A stretch of 30,761 nt of DNA, taken from the IMG/VR virus record IMGVR_UViG_3300018053_000004, positions 1 through 30,761 of that record. The stretch is one strand, 5' to 3'. Numbering within the stretch: position 1 is the stretch's first letter; every line of letters begins with the position of its first letter. A program made the position numbers and the translations under genes. The notes beneath the pieces were generated by a model that was given only the letters and a program-made list of their open reading frames with translations, did no database searches and was not told the origin of the DNA. The DNA is from a virus. Positions 4,665 through 29,114 of this stretch are shown one piece after another.

Positions 4665-5003
4665 TTACCTCCATTGGTTGGTAAGAAACAGTGAGTAGTT
4701 AGCTTGTCTGCAGGCCTTGACATTCTGAGAGTGAGTTAGCTCTCGAAGGTTCTCTATTCTGTTGTCGCCTTTGTCTCCGTTGATGTGGTCTACCTCATAC
4801 CCTTCTCTTGGCTCTCTCCCGTAGTAAAGATACCAGGCGAGTCGATGAGCCTGATATTGTCTCCCACCTATGGTAACACTGATGTAAACTCTATCTCCGG
4901 ACCTTACTTTCTTCCCAACAGTTGTATGCTTCGTGAAGTATCCTGTTACTGGGTTATATGATAGAGTTTTTTGTAGCTCTTCCAGTGGAGGGTGTCTTTT
5001 CAT
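4665..5003 (-). CDS. HNH homing-type endonuclease (second of three)
   Basis: 112 aa from ATG 5003 with SD TAGGAG. It has SYNPVTGYFTK (residues 15-25), QAHRLAWYLYYGREP (51-65) and the core VDHINGDKGDNRIENLR with Asp72-His73, Asn81-Arg82, plus Asn94. This is the standard phage HNH_3-type endonuclease. It lies between the strong promoter at 5043-5072 and the 4153-4662 gene (2-nt gap), as if inserted into that gene's leader. A longer in-frame start at 5072 would lie in the promoter and is rejected. Confidence 0.9.
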   Translation of the reverse strand: MKRHPPLEELQKTLSYNPVTGYFTKHTTVGKKVRSGDRVYISVTIGGRQYQAHRLAWYLYYGREPREGYEVDHINGDKGDNRIENLRELTHSQNVKACRQANYSLFLTNQWR

Positions 5004-5042
5004 TCGAGTCAGACTCCTACGGGTGTTCGAACCATACGGGGG

Positions 5043-5072
5043 ATTATATGCATATTTCACTAGCCTTGTCAA
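5043..5072 (-). promoter_or_regulatory. Near-consensus sigma70 promoter, leftward
   Basis: On the minus strand TTGACA (5072-5067) and TATAAT (5048-5043) are separated by 18 bp. Both hexamers are perfect; only the spacer is 1 bp longer than ideal. The start would be near 5036, giving a leader of about 33 nt to the HNH start at 5003. It lies in a real gap between genes and is matched by the terminator at 4068-4092, so positions 5036 to about 4068 form a self-contained unit. Confidence 0.85.
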
Positions 5073-9937: not shown

Positions 9938-10185
9938 CAGGGATGCCCCTTGCGGGCAAGGTGCTGAGCGATACGGCCGAACGGGACCATCCGGTTACAG
10001 GTGCAAGTGTAGAAGATGCGGTGGCCTTTGTAGCCCTTAGATTTGATAACTGTGACCTTGACCCCGTCGATCTCCTCGACCGAAGCGTGCTCGGGCGGGA
10101 TATGCTGGCCGCGACGAAAGCCGAGAAGGTTGAGCATCTCGTCGGAGTTGACTGGGCGACCCCAAGCGTTGCGAAGGTAGTTCAT
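9937..10185 (-). CDS. 82-aa protein with C-terminal zinc-finger-like motif
   Basis: ATG 10185 with SD AAGGAGTCAG. The N-terminal half has a short helix-turn segment (NSDEMLNLLGFRRGQHIPP). The C-terminus has YTCTCNRMVPFGRIAQHLAR-KGH, that is C-x-C, a helix, then H-x5-H, which resembles a C2H2-type zinc knuckle. A small DNA-binding protein is possible. It overlaps the HNH gene before it by ATGA and the membrane protein after it by one base. Confidence 0.7.
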   Translation of the reverse strand: MNYLRNAWGRPVNSDEMLNLLGFRRGQHIPPEHASVEEIDGVKVTVIKSKGYKGHRIFYTCTCNRMVPFGRIAQHLARKGHP

Positions 10186-10583
10186 TGGGCTGACTCCTTA
10201 AGTGGTTGTGGACTCCAGTATTTGAGCTGTTTGAGAGCCTCGATATACTCTTGCTCTCTCCGTGTTTTCCAACTGTTAGCAACATTGCGGCTGTTGGAAA
10301 TAACGCGTAGGTTACAGAGACGGTTATCGCGAGTGTCACCATTGATATGGTCTACGACAAGACCCGGAGCCGGCCATTGGCCGTGCACGAGTGCCCATAT
10401 GATTCGACTAACTGAATGAGTTTTGCCCTCGAACCTAATCCGAGCGTATTCACTTTTACGGCGCTGATTGGTGCTGGTTCGCGCGCTCGGACCAGATAGC
10501 ACAACGCCAGTTCGCCTGTATGCGAAGCGGCCTGTGTTGGGCTCGTAGTCGAATGTCTCGACGAGTTTTGGTATTAGGGACAT
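10182..10583 (-). CDS. HNH homing-type endonuclease (third of three)
   Basis: 133 aa from ATG 10583. Motifs: FDYEPNTGRFAYRR (11-24), SVSRIIWALVHGQWP (57-71), and the core VDHINGDTRDNRLCNLR with Asp78-His79, Asn87-Arg88 and Asn100. The middle part (GPSARTSTNQRRKS) is longer than in the other two copies. No SD is visible before the ATG. Instead an extended -10 element ends 6 nt upstream, so a leaderless message is possible. A GTG at 10628 would add 15 residues but also lacks an SD. Confidence 0.85.
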   Translation of the reverse strand: MSLIPKLVETFDYEPNTGRFAYRRTGVVLSGPSARTSTNQRRKSEYARIRFEGKTHSVSRIIWALVHGQWPAPGLVVDHINGDTRDNRLCNLRVISNSRNVANSWKTRREQEYIEALKQLKYWSPQPLKESAQ

Positions 10584-10589
10584 TTTTCG

Positions 10590-10598
10590 ATTATGGCA
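10590..10598 (-). promoter_or_regulatory. Possible extended -10 promoter for the third HNH gene
   Basis: The minus strand reads TGCCATAAT, the TGn-TATAAT-type extended -10 with one mismatch. Transcription would begin about 7 nt later, at the A of ATG 10583, giving a leaderless mRNA. The -35 region (ACAATT at a 17-bp spacer) is poor. A promoter is needed somewhere here, because two terminators and a long hairpin separate this gene from the main leftward promoter. Confidence 0.4.
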
Positions 10599-10672
10599 TC
10601 GAATGTGGACAAAATTGTGGCGGGACACGCCCGCTCGAAGATTTATTTTGCAGCGAGATCAGGCTTCATTCG

Positions 10673-13283: not shown

Positions 13284-14759
13284 GTGCCTGTCGCGCCCCG
13301 TAGCGCAGCTTGGAGTCCACAGCCGGGGCCTCAAACCGAGGCCATAATGGCTGATTGGTGCGATGAGCTGTTCTACGGCGGCGCGGCTGGAGGGGGAAAG
13401 AGTGATTTTCTGTTAGGTGATTTTCTGCAAGATGTACCCACCTACGATAAACGGTGGCAGGGGATATTGTTCCGTCGGACCTACAACGAGCTTGAGGACT
13501 TGATCCGCCGCGCGCGCGAGATCTACCCCGCGTCTGGCGCTGTTTGGCACGAACAGGCCAAGACTTGGACCTGGCCAAACGGCGCCAGTCTGCGTATGCG
13601 CTATGTTGAAAGGGACGCAGATGCCACACGCTATCAGGGTCACCAATATACCTGGATCGGATGGGATGAGCTTACGCAGTGGCCCTCCGACTACGCATAT
13701 CGCTTCCTCCGAGCGCGATTACGCAGCGCTCATGGAGTCCCTACAAAACGTATTCGGGCTGCGGCTAACCCCGGCGGAGTGGGCCATCACTGGGTCAAAG
13801 CTTATTTCGTCGATCCGCATCCAGGGGGCTACATTCCCATTGAGGACTCGATCGTCAAGTCCAAAAGGATGTTCGTTCCCGCTAAACTACGAGATAATCA
13901 GATCCTATTATCCGCCGATCCCACCTACGGAGATCGACTCCGCGGGCTTGCGTCCGACGCTATGGTGCGAGCGTGGCTCGAGGGCGACTGGACCGTGGTC
14001 GAGGGCGCCTATTTCGACTGTTGGCGCTACGATTTACACGTTTTGGAGCCCTTTGACATCCCGCGGGAGTGGCCACGGTTCCGTTCGATGGACTGGGGCT
14101 CGTCCAGACCGTTTTCAGTCGGCTGGTGGGCTATCGTAACAGAGGACTTTTGGGCTCAGGGGCAGCGGACCGAGAAAAAGACTCGTTTGGTGCCTCGCGG
14201 CGCGCTTGTGCGGTGCCGAGAGTGGTACGGAATGACCTCTGCGTTCAACGTAGGGCTGAAATTGACCGCTGAGGGGGTCGCTGAGGGCATCAAAAAGCGC
14301 GAAAAAGAGGCAAAAGACCCTCAAATGCGATATGCAGTGCTCGATCCTGCCTGTTTCAAGGAGGACGGCGGGCCGAGCATCGCTGAACGCATAAACAAGG
14401 TGCTTTTAGGTGCTCGCCTGAAGCCTTTTCACGCTGCGGAGAACGCTCGGGTCCCGCAGCGTGGCGCAATGGGGGGCTGGGATCAAATGCGGGCGCGCTT
14501 AGTTGGGCATGATGGTCTACCAATGATCTACTGCCTCAGTACGCACGCAGCATCTATCCGAACGATCCCAGCCCTCCAGCACGACCCCGCTCGAATGGAG
14601 GACGTGAACACAGAGTCTGAAGATCACGCGGCGGATGAGTGGCGCTACGCCTGTATGTCGAGACCCTACGCCCCGGTCCCGGTCAAAGTTACTATGGCGA
14701 AGAAAATCGGTTACACTGCTAAGACCTCCAAGGCCGCGGGCGACTGGATGATCTACTGA
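13284..14759 (+). CDS. terL: Terminase large subunit
   Basis: 491 aa. The N-terminal ATPase shows the adenine motif WSPQPGPQ (10-17), Walker A GGAAGGGKS (32-40), Walker B IGWDE (125-129) and coupling motif ANPGG (161-165). The C-terminal half has RNase H-like nuclease marks: RSMDWGSSRP and YAVLDPACF. The enzyme powers DNA packaging and cuts the concatemer. The start is GTG 13284, because the adenine motif lies before the first ATG (13347); AGTAGGCA serves as SD. Length and motif set fit the P22 gp2-like/terminase_6 group. It overlaps the fibre gene by one base (TGATG). Confidence 0.95.
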   Translation: MPVAPRSAAWSPQPGPQTEAIMADWCDELFYGGAAGGGKSDFLLGDFLQDVPTYDKRWQGILFRRTYNELEDLIRRAREIYPASGAVWHEQAKTWTWPNGASLRMRYVERDADATRYQGHQYTWIGWDELTQWPSDYAYRFLRARLRSAHGVPTKRIRAAANPGGVGHHWVKAYFVDPHPGGYIPIEDSIVKSKRMFVPAKLRDNQILLSADPTYGDRLRGLASDAMVRAWLEGDWTVVEGAYFDCWRYDLHVLEPFDIPREWPRFRSMDWGSSRPFSVGWWAIVTEDFWAQGQRTEKKTRLVPRGALVRCREWYGMTSAFNVGLKLTAEGVAEGIKKREKEAKDPQMRYAVLDPACFKEDGGPSIAERINKVLLGARLKPFHAAENARVPQRGAMGGWDQMRARLVGHDGLPMIYCLSTHAASIRTIPALQHDPARMEDVNTESEDHAADEWRYACMSRPYAPVPVKVTMAKKIGYTAKTSKAAGDWMIY

Positions 14760-17700
14760 TGGCGCATAAGATCGAGGATCGCATCAGAGATACTACCACG
14801 TCAAGTGGTGTAGGTCCCCTTACGGTCACCGGAACTGCTCCAACTCGGTATCGAGCCTTCAGTGCTGTTTGCGCTCCGGCAGATACTATCTGGATCGCCA
14901 CTGTTCACCAGACCGCGAACGAGTGGGAAGTAGCGCTTGCCACCTCCGACGGGGGAACAGGGCTAACTCGGACGACCATTCTCAGTTCATCCAACGGCGG
15001 TGCGGCAGTCAGTTTCTCGGCGGGGACTAAAGATGTTTTCGCAGTTCATCCAGCGGCCGAAATCTATCCGTTTGTCTTCACAGACGTAGTCAAGGGCCTC
15101 GTTCCGGCCTCTGGCGGCGGCAGCACGAACTTTCTTCGCGCCGATGGCACTTGGAATACCCCCGGCGGGAGCAGCACTAACGCATTTGGAACTATCGTTG
15201 TCAGCGGTCAGAGTGACGTGGTCGCTGAGACAGCTCCGGATACTTTGACCCTTGTCGCCGGAACTAACATAACTATTACCACCGATGCCGGAACAGATAC
15301 GATCACTATTAACGCCTCTGGCGGTGCCTCTGCCGGTGGAGCCGATACCCAAATCCAGTTTAATGATGGCGGCGCGTTCGGGGCTGATGCGGATTTCACT
15401 TGGAACAAGACCACCAACGCGCTGTTCGTGAACGGGACTATTGAACTCGGTGCCGCGAGCGATACTACCCTCGCGCGGGTAAGTGCCGGAGTGGTGTCGA
15501 TCGAGGGCGTTACGATCCTTACCACGGCCACTGGTCAACCGCTCGATGCCGATCTGACCTCGTGGGCGTCGGTCACTAGGGCGGCCGGATTTGATGCCTT
15601 CGCGGCCACACCCTCCAGCGCTAATCTCGACACTTTAGTGACAGACGATACCGGCTCTGGCGCGCTGGTCTTTGCCAACACACCTACGCTCGTATCGCCC
15701 CTTCTGGGAACTCCAACATCTGGCGTGCTGACCAACTGTACGGGCCTTCCGAGTATCGTGGTGGCGAACGAAGGCACTGATACAACGTGTTTTATAGCCT
15801 TCTTCACTGGCGCCACGGGCGAACTCGGACCCAAGACCAACGCGAACCTGACCTACAACTCCAATACTGGTGCCTTCTCCATAGGCACGGCTGCGGCCTT
15901 TACGGCCGGAACTATCGAACTAGGCGCCGCTTCAGATACGACGCTGGCACGCGTTTCTGCGGGCGTAGTGTCCATCGAAGGCGTGACCATTCTAACCACC
16001 GCAACGGGGCAACCCCTGGATGCGGATTTAACTTCTTGGGCTGGAGTTACTCGGGCGGCTGGCTTCGATACCTTCGCCACCACCCCGTCTAGTGCCAATC
16101 TTATCACGTTAGTCACCGACGAAACCGGAACTGGGGCGTTGGTGTTTGCCAATACTCCATCCCTGATTACGCCAAAGATCGCTGATAGTGCTGGTGGGCA
16201 GTTTTATAATTTCGCAGTCAGTAATCTCACGGCTGATCGAATAGTGACGCTGCCATTGCTTACGGCTGGTGACACCTTTGTATTTGAGGCCCATGCGCAG
16301 ACGCTCACAAATAAAACCATTGCTCTGGGCAGTAACACAGTCTCCGGCTCGGTGGCCGAGTTCAATGCCGCCCTGACTGCAGCGGACTTCTACACCACAG
16401 GCGGCACCGACGTATCCCTGGCCGATGGTGGTACTGGGGCCTCGCTGGTTGACCCTAACCTCGACCGTTTTCTCTTCTGGGACGACAGCGCGGGTACCAT
16501 CAAGTTCGCCATCCTGGCTGACCTCATCACGGAAGCCGCCCCCGCAGCGGGAGACTTCATCCTGGTGCAGCGCGCGGAGGATGACCTTGTTAAAGTTAAC
16601 TGGTCCTCGCTCCCTGTCGGTGGGGTGCCAACCCTCATCACGGTGGCGAACGAGGCCACCGATACTACGTGCTTCCCGGCGTTCTTCACCGCTGCGACCG
16701 GAGACCTCGGGCCGAAGACCAATACGAACCTCACCTACAATTCTAACACTGGGGCCTTCTCGATTGGCACTGCGGCAGCCCTCACTGCTGGCACGATTGA
16801 ACTCGGTGCTGCCTCTGATACAACTCTGGCCCGCTCTGGCGCTGGTGATGTGACCATCGAAGGTAACACGGTCTATCGCGTAGGCGGCACCGATGTTGCT
16901 TTGGCCGACGGCGGAACCGGTGCATCACTGACAGATCCTAATCTTGATCGTGTCTTGATGTGGGATGACAGTGCAGCGACTATTAAGTTTGCTGACCTCG
17001 CTTCACTAACTACTGAAGGTGCTCCTGCTGCGGGAGACTTTTTGTTGGTGCAGCGAGCTGAGGATGACATTGTCAAAGTGAATTGGTCTTCTCTTCCTGG
17101 GGTGGGCGGCGGCATCTCTAACGTGGTCGAGGACAGCACGCCCGAGTTGGGCGGCGACCTGGAGACCAACAACTTCGACATCAAGTTCGAACAATACAGC
17201 GCCGACGCGGTAGACGCGGAAGCAATCTTCCAGAAGTCCCGCAACGCGGCTATCGGATCGCACACCATCGTCCAGGACGGCGATGACCTGGGTACGCTCC
17301 GCTTCCAAGGCTCCAACGGCACCACCTTCGACACCGCCGCTTTAATCCTTGCTGAAGTGGATGCCACGCCTGGTGCCTCCGCTGATATGCCGGGCAGGCT
17401 TAGCTTCTGGACTACACCAGATGCTTCGGCAACGCCACTAGAGCGGATGCGGATTTCAAACGCTGGGGGCGTGGCCATCGGAGGCGGCGGGGCGGGGGTG
17501 TTTGGAACCATATTCACAGTCCAGGGCAACAGCACACTCCCTGTTGTGGTGGACTTCGGCCATTGGGAGGCGAGCAACGTCGGTCCTACCCAGCGGTTTA
17601 TAAAGAGCCGCAGTGCCTCAATTGCTGGCGTTACTATCGTCAACGATGGTGACACTCTCGGGGTTATGCACTTCTACGGTGCAGATGGTACGAGTTATTC

Positions 17701-18958
17701 ACTCGGCGCTCAGCTTGGCGTTTTCGTGGACGGCACGCCCGGTGTAGGCGATATGCCTTCACGCTTCGTGTTCTCTACGTCCCCAGATGGGAGTGGAACG
17801 CCCAGCGAGCGGATGCGGATCGACAGCGCTGGAAAAGTTGTTATATCTCAGCTTGGTTCTGGTGCTATAACCGGGCACGCAAACACCCCGCAAATTCAGT
17901 TTCATTCCTCTAGCATAGCTAATAATACATTAATGCTTGCCATGTGGGAAGCTGGTGTTAATGGACAGCGATTGGAGTTTGCGAAGTCCCGCCACACTAC
18001 GTTTGGCAGTCACACGGCTCTGAACAGTGGGGACACTATTGGAGAGATTGTCTTTTCGGGGTCGGACGGAGTAAACTTTGAGAAGTTCGCAAAGATCGAA
18101 TGTCTTGTAGAGAGTACTGTAGCTAGCAACGACTGTCCGGGAGGACTGTATTTCTACACTACGCCGGATGGAAGTGCGACGACCACCGAACGTCTGAGGA
18201 TCAACAACGCTGGTGTTGTAATCGTCGGCGGGGCTGCTTCGGTTGCCTCAGTTGACCAAACGGGCGCTGCTATTACCCCCGCTTTGCAAGTTCTGGGTAC
18301 CAATGCTAGTACCTCGGCTATGGAGGTACTGCGCTTTGAAAGCGGTAACAACGCCGCGCGGTTGATACTCGGACGTAGCGCCAATGCTACGATTGGCAGC
18401 CACACTGCTGTTGCAAACAGCGAGGCAACGGGAGCGATCATATTCGTCGGCTCGGACGGCACTGACTTTGAACCATTGGCGGCGATCTTCGCCTTCACCG
18501 ATGGCACTGTCGGGGCCGGTGATATGCCAGGATCGCTTGTGTTTGCTACTACACTAGACGGAGCGGAGGCCACCACCACCCGGCTTACTATCAAGAACGA
18601 TGGGCGTATCGTAGCAGTCAACGGCGCGGTCCCGCACTTCTGGTGCTACTGGACAGCCAACAGTACCACCATTCTGGCCAGCTACAACATGACCTCCATT
18701 GCCGACACCGCAGTCGGTGACGCCGATGGGACTATTGGAGTGGACTTCTCGTCGGCCAACTGGGCCGGGCACGTAGACACCAGCGACTCCACCGCCGCTG
18801 GTTGGGACACGGACAGTATTCAAAGCTCGGGCTTCAACGCCAAGGCTGCTGGTACCTTTGGTGTTCTGTGTGGAAATATGATCGACGGCACTACGGCCGT
18901 AGGTGGTCTAGTGGATCCTCAACAATGGAGCGTGACAGGATTGGGGGTTTCAGCATAA
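14759..18958 (+). CDS. Large repetitive tail fibre protein
   Basis: 1399 aa. The N-terminal ~110 residues (MAHKIEDRIRDTTTSSG, a WEVALATSDGG stretch, AAVSFSAGTKDVFAVHPA) match a frequent head of phage fibres. Then come: a FLRADGTWNTP motif; two ~158-aa repeats beginning GTIELGAASDTTLARVSAG at residues 226 and 384, with a third partial copy at 678; two ~161-aa repeats with ADGGTGAS at 555 and 716; four ~125-aa repeats with a K-S-R/G-R-S start and a DMPG-x-L-x-F-x-T core at about 825-1290; and a C-terminal domain with ASYNMTSIADTAVGD, as in many receptor-binding fibres. It probably forms a trimeric fibre that binds the host surface. The place between terL and portal is unusual. Confidence 0.88.
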   Translation: MAHKIEDRIRDTTTSSGVGPLTVTGTAPTRYRAFSAVCAPADTIWIATVHQTANEWEVALATSDGGTGLTRTTILSSSNGGAAVSFSAGTKDVFAVHPAAEIYPFVFTDVVKGLVPASGGGSTNFLRADGTWNTPGGSSTNAFGTIVVSGQSDVVAETAPDTLTLVAGTNITITTDAGTDTITINASGGASAGGADTQIQFNDGGAFGADADFTWNKTTNALFVNGTIELGAASDTTLARVSAGVVSIEGVTILTTATGQPLDADLTSWASVTRAAGFDAFAATPSSANLDTLVTDDTGSGALVFANTPTLVSPLLGTPTSGVLTNCTGLPSIVVANEGTDTTCFIAFFTGATGELGPKTNANLTYNSNTGAFSIGTAAAFTAGTIELGAASDTTLARVSAGVVSIEGVTILTTATGQPLDADLTSWAGVTRAAGFDTFATTPSSANLITLVTDETGTGALVFANTPSLITPKIADSAGGQFYNFAVSNLTADRIVTLPLLTAGDTFVFEAHAQTLTNKTIALGSNTVSGSVAEFNAALTAADFYTTGGTDVSLADGGTGASLVDPNLDRFLFWDDSAGTIKFAILADLITEAAPAAGDFILVQRAEDDLVKVNWSSLPVGGVPTLITVANEATDTTCFPAFFTAATGDLGPKTNTNLTYNSNTGAFSIGTAAALTAGTIELGAASDTTLARSGAGDVTIEGNTVYRVGGTDVALADGGTGASLTDPNLDRVLMWDDSAATIKFADLASLTTEGAPAAGDFLLVQRAEDDIVKVNWSSLPGVGGGISNVVEDSTPELGGDLETNNFDIKFEQYSADAVDAEAIFQKSRNAAIGSHTIVQDGDDLGTLRFQGSNGTTFDTAALILAEVDATPGASADMPGRLSFWTTPDASATPLERMRISNAGGVAIGGGGAGVFGTIFTVQGNSTLPVVVDFGHWEASNVGPTQRFIKSRSASIAGVTIVNDGDTLGVMHFYGADGTSYSLGAQLGVFVDGTPGVGDMPSRFVFSTSPDGSGTPSERMRIDSAGKVVISQLGSGAITGHANTPQIQFHSSSIANNTLMLAMWEAGVNGQRLEFAKSRHTTFGSHTALNSGDTIGEIVFSGSDGVNFEKFAKIECLVESTVASNDCPGGLYFYTTPDGSATTTERLRINNAGVVIVGGAASVASVDQTGAAITPALQVLGTNASTSAMEVLRFESGNNAARLILGRSANATIGSHTAVANSEATGAIIFVGSDGTDFEPLAAIFAFTDGTVGAGDMPGSLVFATTLDGAEATTTRLTIKNDGRIVAVNGAVPHFWCYWTANSTTILASYNMTSIADTAVGDADGTIGVDFSSANWAGHVDTSDSTAAGWDTDSIQSSGFNAKAAGTFGVLCGNMIDGTTAVGGLVDPQQWSVTGLGVSA
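15434..16042 (+). repeat. Protein-identical, codon-divergent tandem repeats in the fibre gene
   Basis: Segments 15434-15568 and 15908-16042 (period 474 bp) encode the same 45 amino acids, yet 33 of 45 codons differ synonymously by my hand count. A shorter third copy starts at 16790, and a second repeat pair (16421 and 16904, period 483 bp) behaves the same way. The DNA repeats are therefore much weaker than the protein repeats. Confidence 0.9.
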
Positions 18959-23858: not shown

Positions 23859-25001
23859 ATGGCTTTAACCGTAATCGAGAACAACAACAAGCTCATCGTA
23901 TTTACCGAGGAGATAAATCGGGAATACGTTCGAGAGAATATGTTCTCGCCATACATGAGTACCGGCCTCACAGCCATCATCCGGCTACGGCAGGAACTTA
24001 AGAGTGGTGGCGAAGACATGAATATCCCCCTTGTTTCCCGTCTGACGGGAGCAGGGGTTGCTACCGATACCCTAGTGGGTAACGAAGAGAAGATCGACAA
24101 CTACGGTATGCGGGTCCGTATCGAGTGGGCACGCAACGCTATCACTACCAATAAGGCCGAGCGTCAGAAAGACTCGGCTGATGTCTTCGGAGTCGCGAAG
24201 CCGTTGCTGAGCGACTGGGGCAAGGAACTTCAGCGCGACGAGCTGATCGCCGCGTTTATGGCCCTTCCCACTGAGACCCTACCGGCCTCATCGTCTGGCG
24301 TCCGTGTGAACGGTATCCAGTATGATTTGGCCACCGCAGCGCAGCGCGATACTTGGAATGCGGCCAACTCCGATCGCATTCTCTATGGGAACTCGACGGC
24401 GAACTTCAACGCCACCCACGCCACTGCTCTGGCTACTGTCGATACTGCCAACGACAAATTCACTGCCACAAACTTGTCGTTGCTGAAGCGCATCGCAAAG
24501 AACGCTAACCCGAAAATCCGTCCCTACAAGACGGATGACGGATATGAGTACTTTGTGGCCTTCGCCGGAACTAATCCGTTCCGGGATCTCAAGATCTCTC
24601 TTGAGACTATCAACAAAGATGCCAGACCCCGTGAGGGCAATGGCGTCTCCAAGAACCCGATCTTCCAAGATGGTGACCAGATCTATGACGGAGTGATCGT
24701 TCGGGAAGTTCCCGAGATGTCTTCGTTCGTTACCAACGTCTGGACAACCCTCTTGACAGCGGGTACCACGTCTGCTCGAGTCGAGCCCGTGTTCCTGTGT
24801 GGTCAGCAGGCTGCGGTCTTTGCTTGGGGCCAGATGGCAAGGCCGACGTTCCGTAGTGAAGACGACTACGGCTTCATCACCGGCACTGGCGTCGACATGG
24901 CCTATGGCGTGGCGAAGATGTTCAAGAAGCACCCGAACACCAGCTCCAATCTAAAGCAGTGGGGCATGGCGACCGGGTTCTTCGCGTCGGCGTCGGATTA
25001 A
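23859..25001 (+). CDS. N4 gp56-type major capsid protein
   Basis: 380 aa; AAAGGG lies upstream of ATG 23859. Diagnostic stretches: EINREYVRENMFSPYMSTGL, a GEDMNIPLVSRLTG segment, VGNEEKIDNYGMRVRIEWAR with NAITTNKAERQKDSAD, and an FVAFAGTNPFRDLKISLET stretch near residue 230, then CGQQAAVFAWGQMARPTF near 325. These mark the DUF4043/N4 gp56 coat family (HK97 fold). The coat forms the icosahedral head. The neighbours are P22-like, so coat and connector families are combined here. Confidence 0.92.
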   Translation: MALTVIENNNKLIVFTEEINREYVRENMFSPYMSTGLTAIIRLRQELKSGGEDMNIPLVSRLTGAGVATDTLVGNEEKIDNYGMRVRIEWARNAITTNKAERQKDSADVFGVAKPLLSDWGKELQRDELIAAFMALPTETLPASSSGVRVNGIQYDLATAAQRDTWNAANSDRILYGNSTANFNATHATALATVDTANDKFTATNLSLLKRIAKNANPKIRPYKTDDGYEYFVAFAGTNPFRDLKISLETINKDARPREGNGVSKNPIFQDGDQIYDGVIVREVPEMSSFVTNVWTTLLTAGTTSARVEPVFLCGQQAAVFAWGQMARPTFRSEDDYGFITGTGVDMAYGVAKMFKKHPNTSSNLKQWGMATGFFASASD

Positions 25002-25446: not shown

Positions 25447-25482
25447 GGTCGGTGGGTATGTACAGCCCACCGATCCCTTTTT
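25447..25482 (+). terminator. Rightward rho-independent terminator after the coat unit
   Basis: GG-TCGGTGGG, a 9-nt loop and CCCACCGA-TC form a stem of 8 perfect pairs (10 with one G-U), followed by CC and TTTTT (25478-25482). It ends 11 nt before the next start codon and would lower expression of the genes beyond relative to coat and portal. Confidence 0.85.
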
Positions 25483-25493
25483 AGGAGAATACT

Positions 25494-26663
25494 ATGCGTC
25501 CAATGTCAGAGCCTATCCGTCGCGCTGACGGCAATGCTGAGTCTATAGAACTACTTGAGCGGTGGCTCAAGAGAGCCAAAGAGCATGGACAAATAGGTTT
25601 TGTTGGTATTGTTGCCTGTGAAAATCTCAAGCACGTTGTATCTGATTATGGAGGGTCACTGGAGCTATCGTTTGTAGCTAACTGGGGACTGGACACTCTG
25701 AAATACCAGCTGCTCGCGCGGGCACACTCGCGCTACGAAGAACCATTCGAGCCCCCGAACCCAGATCAGGCAGATCGTATCTGCTACGATATCTCGGCTG
25801 GTCCAGCCTGTTTCGATTTCATCGCATGGCTCGTTCTCGCAGAGATGAACAGACGCCGTCATGGTGCTCCAGCGCCGTTGAAGGTCGGGTTCAAGATGCT
25901 TAACAGTCCGCAAGAACGAGATCTACACGAGCGGGAGCGAGCTTCGTTCTATCGGAATGTGATCTTTCCGTCACTGAGTTTTGTCGGAGCTATCGCCGAC
26001 GAGGGCTCAAACGACTCTCCGACTATGGCCAAGTATACACTTCGACCGATAGTCGAGCTTGCGCTCAAAGGCGAGAAAGTGCCGCTGCTCAAGCCGTCGG
26101 CTATGGCGGTCAGTATGATAGACACATTCTTGGCTGACAAGCGTCCGCCAGTGACTATCACTCTGCGTGAGTCCAAGGCCAAATGGGAGTTCAGAAACTC
26201 CAATATTGACGAGTGGCTCAAAGTCGCTAGGTATCTGGAGAACAGAGGCGAGCGAGTGATCTTTGTCCGTGACACGGAGTTTGCTCGGGAGCCTATGTCT
26301 GGTGGATTTAATACTTGTCCAGACGCCTCGATAGACATCAACGCGCGTCTCGCGCTGTATGAGGCTGCCAAGTGCAACTTGTTCGTATCGAACGGCCCCT
26401 GGATGCTTGCCCTGCACGGCTCTCGTCCATGGCTGATGTTCGTCGAGACTAATGCGATGTCGGCGTTCTTTCCGGAGACACCTCAGTGGTGGACGCAGTG
26501 GCATGGCATCCACAACGCTCAGTTCCCGTGGTCTCTACCGACGCAGGAGATCATTTGGGAGCGCGATGATGCTGATAACATCATCAAGGCTTGGGAGAAC
26601 CTCAATGCCCGAATGATCCACGCTGGAAACTGGGGAGCCCAAACGGTGCAAGCCGCAGAATGA
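25494..26663 (+). CDS. 389-aa protein, possible GT-B (glycosyltransferase)-like domain
   Basis: SD TTAGGAG before ATG 25494. Residues ~15-85 (SIELLERWLKRAKEHGQIGF-VGIVAC, ending LDTLKYQLLAR) resemble a short domain seen alone in some phage proteins. The rest alternates strands and helices like a GT-B fold: RICYDISAGP, VTITLRES with KWEFRNSN, EWLKVARYLENRGERVIFVR, then KCNLFVSNGPWMLALHGSRP, which recalls the GPMHLA-type loop of heptosyltransferase-like (GT9) enzymes. A sugar-transfer role on a virion component is conceivable but unproven. The gene lies between coat and tail-machine genes, after a terminator; P22 has nothing here. Confidence 0.45.
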   Translation: MRPMSEPIRRADGNAESIELLERWLKRAKEHGQIGFVGIVACENLKHVVSDYGGSLELSFVANWGLDTLKYQLLARAHSRYEEPFEPPNPDQADRICYDISAGPACFDFIAWLVLAEMNRRRHGAPAPLKVGFKMLNSPQERDLHERERASFYRNVIFPSLSFVGAIADEGSNDSPTMAKYTLRPIVELALKGEKVPLLKPSAMAVSMIDTFLADKRPPVTITLRESKAKWEFRNSNIDEWLKVARYLENRGERVIFVRDTEFAREPMSGGFNTCPDASIDINARLALYEAAKCNLFVSNGPWMLALHGSRPWLMFVETNAMSAFFPETPQWWTQWHGIHNAQFPWSLPTQEIIWERDDADNIIKAWENLNARMIHAGNWGAQTVQAAE

Positions 26664-26706: not shown

Positions 26707-26889
26707 ATGGAAGACCAGACCAAAGATCAGACTCATGTTCCGCCCTCACAGCAATCCGCTCAGGGGCCTGTTGCGAAGCCTGGAGAGCCAGTGACCTGGA
26801 CGAAGGGCACTAACGCCCCGCCGAAGCCTCCGACCAAGAAGGCTCCGGAGCCTGTCGTCGAGTCGAAGCCCGTAAAAAAGAGCCCTTGA
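26707..26889 (+). CDS. 60-aa low-complexity Pro/Lys-rich protein
   Basis: SD GAAGGAG before ATG 26707. The sequence is almost all Pro, Lys, Gln, Thr and Glu (KPGEPVTWTKGTNAPPKPPT, then KAPEPVVESKPVKKSP), so it should be unfolded. The stop is 1 nt before the next ATG. It may be a flexible linker or small virion accessory protein. Confidence 0.6.
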   Translation: MEDQTKDQTHVPPSQQSAQGPVAKPGEPVTWTKGTNAPPKPPTKKAPEPVVESKPVKKSP

Positions 26890-26890
26890 G

Positions 26891-27352
26891 ATGGCCGTAT
26901 TCTCATCAACTCAGCCGAGTCTTCGGGCTCGGATACTCCCAAGGTTCCCCGCGCAGGTTGTCGCGGGGAATGGGATCACTATCACCAAAAGTGGTGGAGT
27001 GTACACCTTCGAGGTGACCAACCAGCTTGGTGGTAACGATACAGAGGTTCAGTTCAACAGTGGTGGGGTCTTCGCAGGCGATCCTACCTTCACGTTCAAC
27101 AGTGCTACGAACGTGCTTACAGTTGCTGCTCTTACAGTGGCTGGAAACGTCACAGTTGGTGGTATCATTGATGCTGGTGTCACTATCAAGACCGTTCCTA
27201 CAACAGTAGCTCTTCTACCGGCGGTAGGAACAAAGGGCAGAAGAGCCTTTGTTACCGACGCTAATGCGACGACGTTCGCCTCTATCGTCGCCGCAGGCGG
27301 CACAAACAATCTCCCGGTCTACGACGACGGGACCAACTGGAGGATTGGATAG
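26891..27352 (+). CDS. Small fibre-like protein sharing a module with the large fibre
   Basis: 153 aa. The core AGNGITITKSGGVYTFEV, then NDTEVQFNSGGVFAGDPTFT and NSATNVLTVAALTVAGNVTV, repeats the pattern ADTQIQFNDGGAFGADADFT and TTNALFVNGTIELG of the 1399-aa fibre (about residues 198-230). The C-terminal AVGTKGRRAFVTDANATTFA and NNLPVYDDGTNWRIG is typical of phage fibre tips. A short fibre, or a part that joins the fibre to the virion, is likely. Confidence 0.7.
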   Translation: MAVFSSTQPSLRARILPRFPAQVVAGNGITITKSGGVYTFEVTNQLGGNDTEVQFNSGGVFAGDPTFTFNSATNVLTVAALTVAGNVTVGGIIDAGVTIKTVPTTVALLPAVGTKGRRAFVTDANATTFASIVAAGGTNNLPVYDDGTNWRIG

Positions 27353-27696
27353 TGGATATAACCAAGACCCGAACCGAGTTGATACTCGAGGCCGCGGACA
27401 AGCTGAAAATCGTCGGTACTGGCCAATCACTCGAGGCAGAGTATTCGGCCAAGCTCGATGGCAATATCGACCCGCTGTTCATGCAGCTCGCCTCGGATGG
27501 TATCTGCGAGGTCGTCAATGATAACCAGATACCAAGCGAATGGTTCGACGCTCTTGCGGGCCTACTGGCCAACATCTGCGCGCCTCTTGGCGGCACGGGC
27601 TTCGATCCGAGAATACAAGAGTACTACGAGATGAAGCTCAAGCGGCTGACTTCTAGTCGTCCGAGCTACACCGTGTTGGAGAATGAGTATTTCTAA
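27352..27696 (+). CDS. P22 gp4-like head-completion/adaptor protein (putative)
   Basis: 114 aa from GTG 27352 (overlaps the previous TAG by one base). It is helical, with TRTELILEAADKLKIVGTGQ and NIDPLFMQLASDGICEV, then WFDALAGLLANICAPLGG, the outline of tail accessory adaptors that bind under the portal. It directly precedes the gp10-like gene, as in P22 (gp4-gp10-gp26). Sequence likeness to gp4 is remote and the call leans on order. P22 gp4 itself is longer (about 166 aa). Confidence 0.65.
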   Translation: MDITKTRTELILEAADKLKIVGTGQSLEAEYSAKLDGNIDPLFMQLASDGICEVVNDNQIPSEWFDALAGLLANICAPLGGTGFDPRIQEYYEMKLKRLTSSRPSYTVLENEYF

Positions 27697-29114
27697 TGTC
27701 TGTGAGTATCATATTTCCGCCTTCGAGCGCGCCCGGTCAGCGGCCTCAGGAGTCTGCTGGGCGCCTCATAAATGCTTTCGCTGAAAAGACTCCAGTTGGG
27801 GCGCCTTCGCAGGTGATCCATCGACGCTCGCCAGGGCTCTTAAGAGTCGCAGAGTCCGTGGACAAAATACATACGAGAGGTTTTTTGGATATTGGGACAG
27901 AGGTGCTCTGGATACTGAACGAAAGAGTTCTCAAGATCAACTCAGCCTTTACAGTCTCAGACGTTGGGGCTCTTAGCGGAACAGAGCCGGTGACTGTAGC
28001 ACGAAACAATGCAGTCACTCCAAACAACGTCGTGGTCACTGACACTGGCTGTTTCAATCTGTTCAGTGGCTCTGCTCCGACATCGTTCGCTGATGCAGAC
28101 CTTCCAGGGTCACCGACAAGCGTCTGTGATTATAATGGATACTTTGTTTGGTCCTTTGCGGATGGGAGGATTTTCGCGTCGGATCTCAACTCGGTGTCAG
28201 TGTCGGCTCTGTCGTTCAACACCGAGCAGGGGCTCAACGTTCGTCGAGTTGTGCGCTACGCGGGGCGATTGTATGCCTTTGGCGACAAGTGGACAGGGGT
28301 CTATCGTGACGCGGGAACGAGTCCTTTCCCATTCGCCCGCGAAGTCACTATTCCTCGGGGGATCGTCGGGACTCATGCCATTGGAGGCTGGGAAGCGGGA
28401 TGGGCGAACGAGTTGATCTGGGCTGGAGATGACTTTATAGTGTATAAACTCAATGGATACACTCCAGTACCAATCTCTACCAACGACGTGAGTCGCTCTA
28501 TTCAGGAGGCTGTACTGGCCGGGGATAGAGATTTGATCGAGGTGACTATCTATATGTTTGAGAAGAACGCTTTTTGGGCGATTAGCGCTCATAACCGTTT
28601 TACTTGGGAGTATAATCTCTCGACCGGGGAATGGAACGAGCGGAAATCGTACAATAAGGATGACTGGAAGGGGATGAAGTCACTCCGAATGTTCGATCGC
28701 TGGCTCGTAGGAGATCAATATACTGGAGAACTGTACGAACTTCGAGGAGACTACTATTTGGAGGGCATTGACCCACTGATTTGGCATGTGGAAAGTGGAG
28801 CACTTTCAGATTTTCCTCGCGGAATGGTGATACCAAGGGCGAGTTTCAACTGTACCGCAGGTGTTGGCGACTTCGATGTTGCAGAGGATCCGAAAATCGA
28901 GATCTCATGGTCTCTCGACGGCGGATATCACTATGGAGAGCCAGTAATTCGTCGTCTAGGCGGCCCCGGACGAACAAAGTCTCATCCGTACATTCTCAGC
29001 AGTGGACTGTCCAAAGGTCAGGGCGTGCGATACCGACTTAGGGTCTCCGATCCAGTTCACGTTGGACTATCTGGCGGTGTTATTGAGCCAGAACAGAGAG
29101 GGTTCTCTGGATGA
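27696..29114 (+). CDS. P22 gp10-like packaged DNA stabilisation protein
   Basis: 472 aa, about the length of P22 gp10. Typical opening: APGQRPQESAGRLINAFAEK, then RRSPGLLRVAES. Later parts (GRLYAFGDKWTGVYRDAG, WELIWAGDDFIVYKLNG in outline, NLSTGEWNERKSYNKDDWKG) form beta-propeller-like strands as in the Phage_stabilise family. The protein caps the gp4 ring and holds packaged DNA. ATG 27696 overlaps the previous TAA; the stop overlaps the next gene by ATGA. Confidence 0.88.
   Translation: MSVSIIFPPSSAPGQRPQESAGRLINAFAEKTPVGAPSQVIHRRSPGLLRVAESVDKIHTRGFLDIGTEVLWILNERVLKINSAFTVSDVGALSGTEPVTVARNNAVTPNNVVVTDTGCFNLFSGSAPTSFADADLPGSPTSVCDYNGYFVWSFADGRIFASDLNSVSVSALSFNTEQGLNVRRVVRYAGRLYAFGDKWTGVYRDAGTSPFPFAREVTIPRGIVGTHAIGGWEAGWANELIWAGDDFIVYKLNGYTPVPISTNDVSRSIQEAVLAGDRDLIEVTIYMFEKNAFWAISAHNRFTWEYNLSTGEWNERKSYNKDDWKGMKSLRMFDRWLVGDQYTGELYELRGDYYLEGIDPLIWHVESGALSDFPRGMVIPRASFNCTAGVGDFDVAEDPKIEISWSLDGGYHYGEPVIRRLGGPGRTKSHPYILSSGLSKGQGVRYRLRVSDPVHVGLSGGVIEPEQRGFSG

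Follow-up and report, generated by a model that had tools for sequence, protein, structure and literature searches.

The window analysed here, a 30,761-nucleotide stretch of viral DNA, carries a gene for a 389-residue protein within its head and tail genes (Table 1), preceded by a Shine-Dalgarno-like AGGAG at 25483-25487. The phage is related to the Pseudanabaena phages Pam1, Pam5 and Pan3 and to CBW1004C-Prop1, with capsid identities of 32-38% and portal identities of 30-35%. In Pam1 the genes run in the order capsid, cement, adaptor and needle head. The window keeps this order, with the gene lying between the coat and cement pair and the adaptor and head-completion genes, in accordance with the first-pass annotation, which had placed it between decoration and tail-machine genes. 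Sequence similarity is low for two of these neighbours: Pam1 cement aligns with the cement candidate over 13 residues only (E 0.008), and comparing the sequences of the adaptor candidate and the Pam1 adaptor yielded nothing useful. The terminator that had been reported ahead of the gene is present as a hairpin, and hairpins of quite different sequence occupy the same position in the related loci L003, L006, L016 and L025 (pairing judged by eye), with a T run just 3-4 long in L003, L006 and L016. Since a general terminator scan of the region was not richer than shuffled sequence (7 found versus a shuffle mean of 5.6), the position of the hairpin and its kept pairing carry the weight. Three HNH-type homing endonuclease-like ORFs were also seen by eye in the window, at 65-382, 4665-5072 and 10182-10628 (minus strand).

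Table 1. Features of the locus (window coordinates)
Feature	Position	Strand	Remarks
Major capsid protein gene	23859..25001	+	PHROG 334, PF13252; 38% identity to Pam1 capsid
Cement (decoration) protein gene, 142 aa	25013..25441	+	position as in Pam1, not sequence
Terminator-like hairpin	25447..25475	+	11 pairs then TTTTT; between cement and GT genes
GT-B protein gene	25494..26663	+	389 aa; ORF, AF2 model, PDB comparisons led by GT9
N-terminal accessory domain, alpha-beta-beta-alpha	25494..25757	+	residues 1-88; AF2 model; PHROG 796 match
GT-B core	25758..26633	+	residues ~89-380; VIA-align ranges 91-376 (1psw), 88-374 (3tov)
D108, proposed catalytic base	25815..25817	+	starts first core helix; candidate counterpart of WaaC D13 / TibC D110
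T223-L224-R225-E226 ... R234-N235-S236	26160..26201	+	putative donor-phosphate site
R259-D260-T261 motif	26268..26276	+	44, 44 and 43 of 44 rows
R285 to N300-G301-P302	26346..26399	+	ends in counterpart of GT9 D-x-G-x-x-H loop
60-aa ORF, probable gene remnant	26707..26889	+	C-terminal half of ~125-aa gene; insertion scar
Fibre-like structural gene, 153 aa	26891..27352	+	weak PHROG tail fibre match, E 0.01
Adaptor gene	27352..27696	+	by position, Pam1 order
Head closure / needle-head gene	27696..29114	+	PHROG 578; Pam1 gp8 E 2e-15

From a capsid-protein scan, 80 of 253 relatives were taken and L025 was added, giving 81 coat loci: 57 with a closed interval behind the coat genes, 3 open with the gene and 21 open without it. 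The gene is present in 6 of the 57 closed intervals (two of them copies of this window) and absent from 51, counts that include near-copies and in which absence concerns the sequenced stretch and not the whole genome. Behind the gene, the 60-residue ORF aligns with residues 65-119 of its counterpart in L113 (E 6e-12) and residues 58-102 of that in L138 (E 1.6e-13), and across the ~125-residue genes that occupy this place in L113, L118, L131 and L138 the matches to their second halves run from E 2.8e-6 to 1.6e-13. These alignments were made on a Pro/Lys-rich stretch with the low-complexity filter and composition correction off, and on them the ORF is the probable 3′ half of a replaced gene. Because 51 of the 57 coat relatives do without the gene there and the remnant of another gene follows it, the data support an accessory insertion between the cement and adaptor genes of a Pam1-like podovirus, as the first-pass annotation had proposed.

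A near relative places the gene elsewhere. L053 (1-8291) has a terminase 92% (partial) and a portal 90% identical to those of the window, whereas its enzyme is only 50% identical and lies between terminase and portal, before fibre-like genes, accompanied by a Ser/Thr-rich 142-residue gene, a 156-residue gene and a 922-residue fibre-like gene. This other location, together with the absence from coat relatives, indicates that the gene has been gained and moved. The window itself has a 1399-residue repetitive fibre-like gene (14759-18958) where L053 has the enzyme and fibre-like genes. The 153-residue fibre-like gene of the window also comes after the enzyme gene in L103, L104, L106, L109 and L006. 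Within the clade of the window ORF the gene is under purifying selection, since dN/dS was 0.10-0.11 in the two measurable pairs (0.110 for L003 and 0.099 for L006); in the comparison with L016, synonymous sites were saturated.

Searched alone, the 389-residue protein had no match in Pfam or PHROGs at the limits used, and phage and plasmid records returned nothing useful, only one chance match (E 8). Its close relatives are seven loci (79-100%) on uncultivated virus contigs in IMG/VR, and iterated profile scans enlarged the set to 8, 10, 21, 36 and then 57 loci, with 59 distinct IMG/VR contigs overall. Three other family members found no match at E 0.1 in 50,697 phage records, no family relative turned up when bacterial genomes were scanned with two patterns, and solved structures searched by sequence with family profiles gave no convincing relative. 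Since family loci were collected via peptide patterns, part of the residue invariance described below is a selection effect. The pattern for the seven close relatives included D108 and E226 among others, that of the 10-locus scan NSN[IV]DEW and LYEAAKC (which holds Y289), that of the 21-locus scan NSN[IV]DEW and N295-F297-V298-N300, and those of the 36- and 57-locus scans V255-R259-D260 and N295 to P302. D108, T223-L224-R225-E226, R234 and R285 are absent from all patterns that brought distant members. The resulting alignment, A8, has 44 rows: the 57-locus set minus 15 (13 near-copies and 2 with the frame broken at the match), plus L052 and the 389-residue protein. Rows L064 and L071 are partial, L051 reaches the end of its contig, and start codons of the six rows that have no N-terminal domain were picked by reading.

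From A8, AlphaFold modelled the protein at pLDDT 90.6 and pTM 0.82, compared with pLDDT 33 from only 7 near-identical rows. In the predicted model, residues ~91-376 form two Rossmann-like domains with a cleft, the arrangement of the GT-B superfamily. A GT-B-like fold had been proposed from sequence, with an unrelated predicted fold named as the outcome that would count against it; instead, GT9 enzymes lead both comparisons with the PDB. Foldseek put GT9 on top (3tov at E 1.1e-5, WaaC and WaaF), with TibC lower in the list, while VIA-align gave WaaF a Z of 15.4 (236 residues, 3.5 Å), 3tov 15.4 (231 residues, 3.1 Å), WaaC 14.0 and TibC 12.6. The fold is shared with E. coli WaaF and WaaC and with 3tov over 223-236 residues, but at only 8-13% identity in structural alignments. 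At the level of the model, a GT-B fold closest to GT9 heptosyltransferases is confirmed for this part of the protein.

Profile searches give a fainter picture of the same kinship. The best glycosyltransferase family match is TIGR04372, found by 11 of 26 members at E <= 0.1 (best 1.5e-5); the 389-residue protein covers 88 of its 207 profile positions and scores 16.3 bits (18.2 in the genome search), below the 45-bit cut-off. TIGR04414, the Aah/TibC O-heptosyltransferase family, is matched weakly by 3 of 26 members (best 0.0044). The amidase CwlD profile (TIGR02883), to which the fold gives no support, likewise picks up 4 of 26 members (best 0.0003), so profile matches at such a level are weak. 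For the GT9 family PF01075, 2 of 44 members match at E <= 0.1, the best at 0.022 and thus short of the cut-off, and the 389-residue protein itself has no match. Aligned by hhalign with four E. coli GT9 proteins (WaaC, WaaF, WaaQ and WaaU), the family reaches a probability of 89.7 and E 1.8e-6 over 96 columns. A structural relative is found among viral models: the uncharacterized BFVD entry A0A0F7L8U4 from an uncultured marine virus has the same fold (E 8.3e-15, target TM 0.77, 21% identity) and probably belongs to the family. This unannotated protein of 272 residues is probably too short to hold the N-terminal domain.

The conserved residues cluster where an active site would be expected. In the column of D108, Asp stands in 39 and Glu in 3 of the 42 rows having a residue there. 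On secondary structure in the model, D108 may be the equivalent of WaaC D13, the catalytic base of that enzyme, both starting the first core helix. Its proposed counterpart in TibC is D110 (PMC4358343). T223, L224, R225, E226, R234, N235 and S236 are each invariant in all 44 rows; N235 and S236 sat in search patterns, whereas the other five did not figure in the distant-member scans. An ungapped hand alignment makes R234 a candidate counterpart of WaaC K192, the phosphate-binding lysine, whereas hhalign does not reproduce this and places K192 near the variable K228-K230 stretch with gaps. The counts for R259 and D260 in Table 1 are biased, as both lay inside a search pattern. All 44 rows also share R285 and Y289; Y289, N295 and the NGP residues belonged to search patterns, and R285 did not.

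The GT-B-like loop singled out in the first-pass annotation, NGPWMLALHGSRP (residues 300-312 of the 389-residue protein), does align by hhalign with the WaaC donor loop D261-T-G-L-S-H266...P274 (E 1.8e-6). The donor-loop glycine is kept (G301) and the proline, P312, is found in 41 of 44 rows, both in register with WaaF and WaaC. In place of the D-(S/T)-G-x-x-H loop of GT9, however, the protein has S299-N300-G301-P302-W303-M304, and WaaC Asp261 and His266 fall on S299 and M304, both variable in the family. Since these positions hold variable residues, the enzyme may be a glycosyltransferase with a donor other than ADP-heptose. Active-site places are conserved while the hallmark Asp and His of GT9 are lost, for which reason we regard the protein as a divergent glycosyltransferase that is likely to be active, a judgement drawn from sequence and model. 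Very probably it transfers sugars and belongs to a viral family that has no name as yet. Among open-licence articles in PubMed Central, none combined TIGR04372 with glycosyltransferase, and the titles and abstract openings of those listed on phage glycosyltransferases and virion or capsid glycosylation contained nothing recognised as this family.

A further difference from WaaF and WaaC is the extra domain in front of the core, residues 1-88, which bears out the short N-terminal domain described from the sequence. PHROG 796 (83 residues, unknown function) matches it in 20 of 41 records at E <= 0.01, the best at E 5.9e-9 in a relative and at E 0.001 for the window protein. A profile of the domain leads to a stand-alone 79-residue protein of Pseudomonas phage YMC11/06/C171_PPU_BP (E 4.4e-8). 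The profile search of both halves that had been recommended thus takes the core to TIGR04372 and, by hhalign, to GT9, and the N-terminal domain to PHROG 796 and this C171 protein. Single domains found less: that of L048 had no match in phage records at E 1, and that of the window protein matched them at E 0.7 or worse only. The domain is missing in 6 of 44 family members, and on a tree of cores its presence and absence need two changes, of which the well-supported branches force one only. The stand-alone relative is encoded at L102:31646-31885 (KU310944.1), near DNA-metabolism genes. We rejected the idea that the domain is a dedicated virion binder, since this C171 relative has genes for endonuclease VII and DNA polymerase nearby and is not part of a structural cluster.

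The architecture resembles that of the bacterial TibC/Aah (BAHT) enzymes, in which a GT9-like core follows a ~90-residue N-terminal domain. According to PMC4358343, TibC glycosylates a protein acceptor and requires its N-terminal domain, and it has an iron finger and a ring assembly; that domain is a beta-barrel there, unlike the alpha-beta-beta-alpha domain of the phage protein.

The neighbours of family members offer a view of what the enzyme may act on. Of 115 neighbour ORFs, 114 enter the PHROG tally, the remaining one being a copy of the glycosyltransferase, and the first 25 of the 110 families include terminase, portal, major head, tail and tail fibre proteins, as well as methyltransferases, one of them named DNA methyltransferase (3 of 114 proteins). 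Methyltransferase domains lay within 1 kb of a glycosyltransferase copy at 9 of 20 places, compared with 2.27 expected, and none of 20,000 random placements put as many near the copies. Only places whose domain exceeded the Pfam cut-off (20) entered this test, 9 weaker ones being dropped; the nearest copy is partial in G011 and G013, and the place in G047 was derived from L064. Immediate neighbours are also richer in Ser and Thr, with a mean content of 0.172 (n=42) versus 0.142 (n=222) in other nearby genes, at a one-sided p of 0.001 that is uncorrected for related, hence not independent, loci. The comparison covered 33 loci under simple ORF calling, and ORFs with R+P+W+C above 0.22 were dropped as probably spurious. 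Of 40 records, 3 hold a GT2 domain that exceeds the cut-off. Second enzyme copies were seen in L066 (4378-7068), L028 (1698-8585) and L054 (1801-7128, in pieces), with a methyltransferase domain between the two copies in L066.

The region behind the capsid gene varies among related phages. In CBW1004C-Prop1 (MZ188970.1) a sulfotransferase-annotated gene stands directly behind the capsid gene (L096:8101-8631), near the slot that the enzyme gene takes in the window; its product had no sulfotransferase match among solved structures, so the label rests on annotation and motifs read by eye. In the same genome gp44 (L096:4158-6035), annotated as a 6-phosphogluconolactonase, matches the portal of the window phage at E 1e-64, and by this match the annotation is probably wrong. 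In podovirus ctDrO704, genes for a TPR protein, an FkbM methyltransferase and a galT-like protein follow the capsid gene at a distance of a few genes. The TPR part resembles solved TPR proteins by sequence, O-GlcNAc transferases among them, and a GT9-like G-D-E-I-L motif was found by reading; membership of the ctDrO704 protein in the present family is unsupported (hhalign probability 0.1). Behind the capsid gene, RHph_Y1_10 has an HNH endonuclease gene and KLEP18-1 has structural genes; related phages likewise have HNH genes close to the capsid gene. Acetyltransferase-annotated genes occur further down the structural operon as Pam1 gp11 (L095:9000-9419) and KLEP18-1 gp18 (L101:8872-9261), and may encode a further kind of modifying enzyme.

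The first-pass annotation had left three options, an enzyme modifying virion glycans, one modifying host glycans, or an enzyme fold reused as a structural part. Given the conservation pattern and the methyltransferase genes nearby, an enzyme is more likely than structural reuse of the fold. Our main reading, to which we give a probability of about one half, is that the enzyme glycosylates a virion surface protein. Virion glycosylation has been reported for a few mycobacteriophages, which serve as its precedent; for a protein acceptor and for dependence on an N-terminal domain the closest precedent is TibC. PMC12363180 and PMC11256854 describe phage-encoded glycosyltransferases of Che8, Corndog and Myrna that decorate capsid and tail proteins, the tail tube being named in the former; in Maravista, the glycosyltransferase genes are reported to lie near the 3′ end of the genome, unlike the placement here. 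Against this reading, the enrichment in Ser and Thr is small and these residues abound in structural genes in any case, most coat relatives manage without the gene at this place, and Pam1, Pam5 and Pan3 likewise have no annotated enzyme directly after capsid or cement.

The main rival, which we consider rather unlikely, has the active glycosyltransferase alter LPS or capsule on the host surface late in infection and so block re-adsorption of progeny to debris or superinfection. WaaF and WaaC, the nearest solved enzymes, act on LPS, and serotype change driven by phage glycosyltransferases is established and supports this alternative. Such change is named in PMC12619734. The gene, however, belongs to the virion module, just 4 of 40 records (many of them fragments) have integrase domains that exceed the cut-off, and protein glycans are the better, if not the exclusive, fit to the methyltransferase and Ser/Thr-rich structural neighbours.

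Reuse of the GT-B fold as a non-catalytic virion or assembly part is improbable. One chain of the NDH-PSI supercomplex of chloroplasts, 7wff_a, ranks third in VIA-align with Z 14.2, so a GT-B-type fold can serve inside a large assembly too, and the gene does lie within a structural cluster. The invariant acidic and basic residues argue against this, as do the absence of the gene from most coat intervals, its other location in a near relative, and the hairpin between the coat/cement and enzyme genes, which suggests lower expression. Glycosylation of modified bases of phage DNA is a long shot: phage glycosyltransferases acting on DNA are established, but no base-hydroxylation genes were noticed by reading among the ORFs of the window, the gene sits in a head-tail cluster, and no such enzyme is among the 50 structural matches listed. 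DNA-acting phage enzymes are also mentioned in PMC12619734. As improbable is a GT-B-fold enzyme that is no transferase, such as a nucleotide-sugar epimerase, as the non-hydrolysing UDP-GlcNAc 2-epimerases reach a VIA-align Z of ~10, about five units under the leading GT9 enzymes, and among family profiles a glycosyltransferase gives the best match.

If the enzyme does glycosylate a virion surface protein, it would be a soluble GT-B glycosyltransferase of GT9/TibC-like type with a small phage domain fused in front, encoded by an accessory gene in the late operon and made together with shell and tail proteins. Its donor may be a host nucleotide-sugar that R225, R234, R285 and the NGP loop bind in the C-terminal half of the core, while D108 would activate a Ser or Thr of an exposed virion protein, leaving the sugar on the particle. 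Candidate acceptors are the cement protein made just upstream and fibre-like proteins, and the sugar could alter recognition of the particle or the place to which it binds. Many relatives have an adjoining methyltransferase that may cap the sugar; that it acts on the sugar is a guess, because one neighbouring methyltransferase family is named DNA methyltransferase in PHROGs. More tentatively still, an unnamed viral GT-B family with its fused phage domain may constitute a mobile virion-glycan cassette. Small Ser/Thr-rich cement or fibre genes and sugar O-methyltransferases would travel with it from one structural slot to another in diverse tailed phages, and each such cassette would place a capped glycan of its own on a surface protein that belongs to it.

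The motif set TLRE, RNS, RDT and NGP can find such genes, which Pfam and PHROGs missed here. Were the cassette reading true, the slot after the capsid gene of Pam1-like podoviruses would be one in which glycosyl-, sulfo- and methyltransferases come and go. Were virion glycosylation true of the enzyme's family, tailed phages from the environment would widely carry protein glycans as a swappable trait, and in any one genome the gene next to the enzyme would point to the protein to examine.
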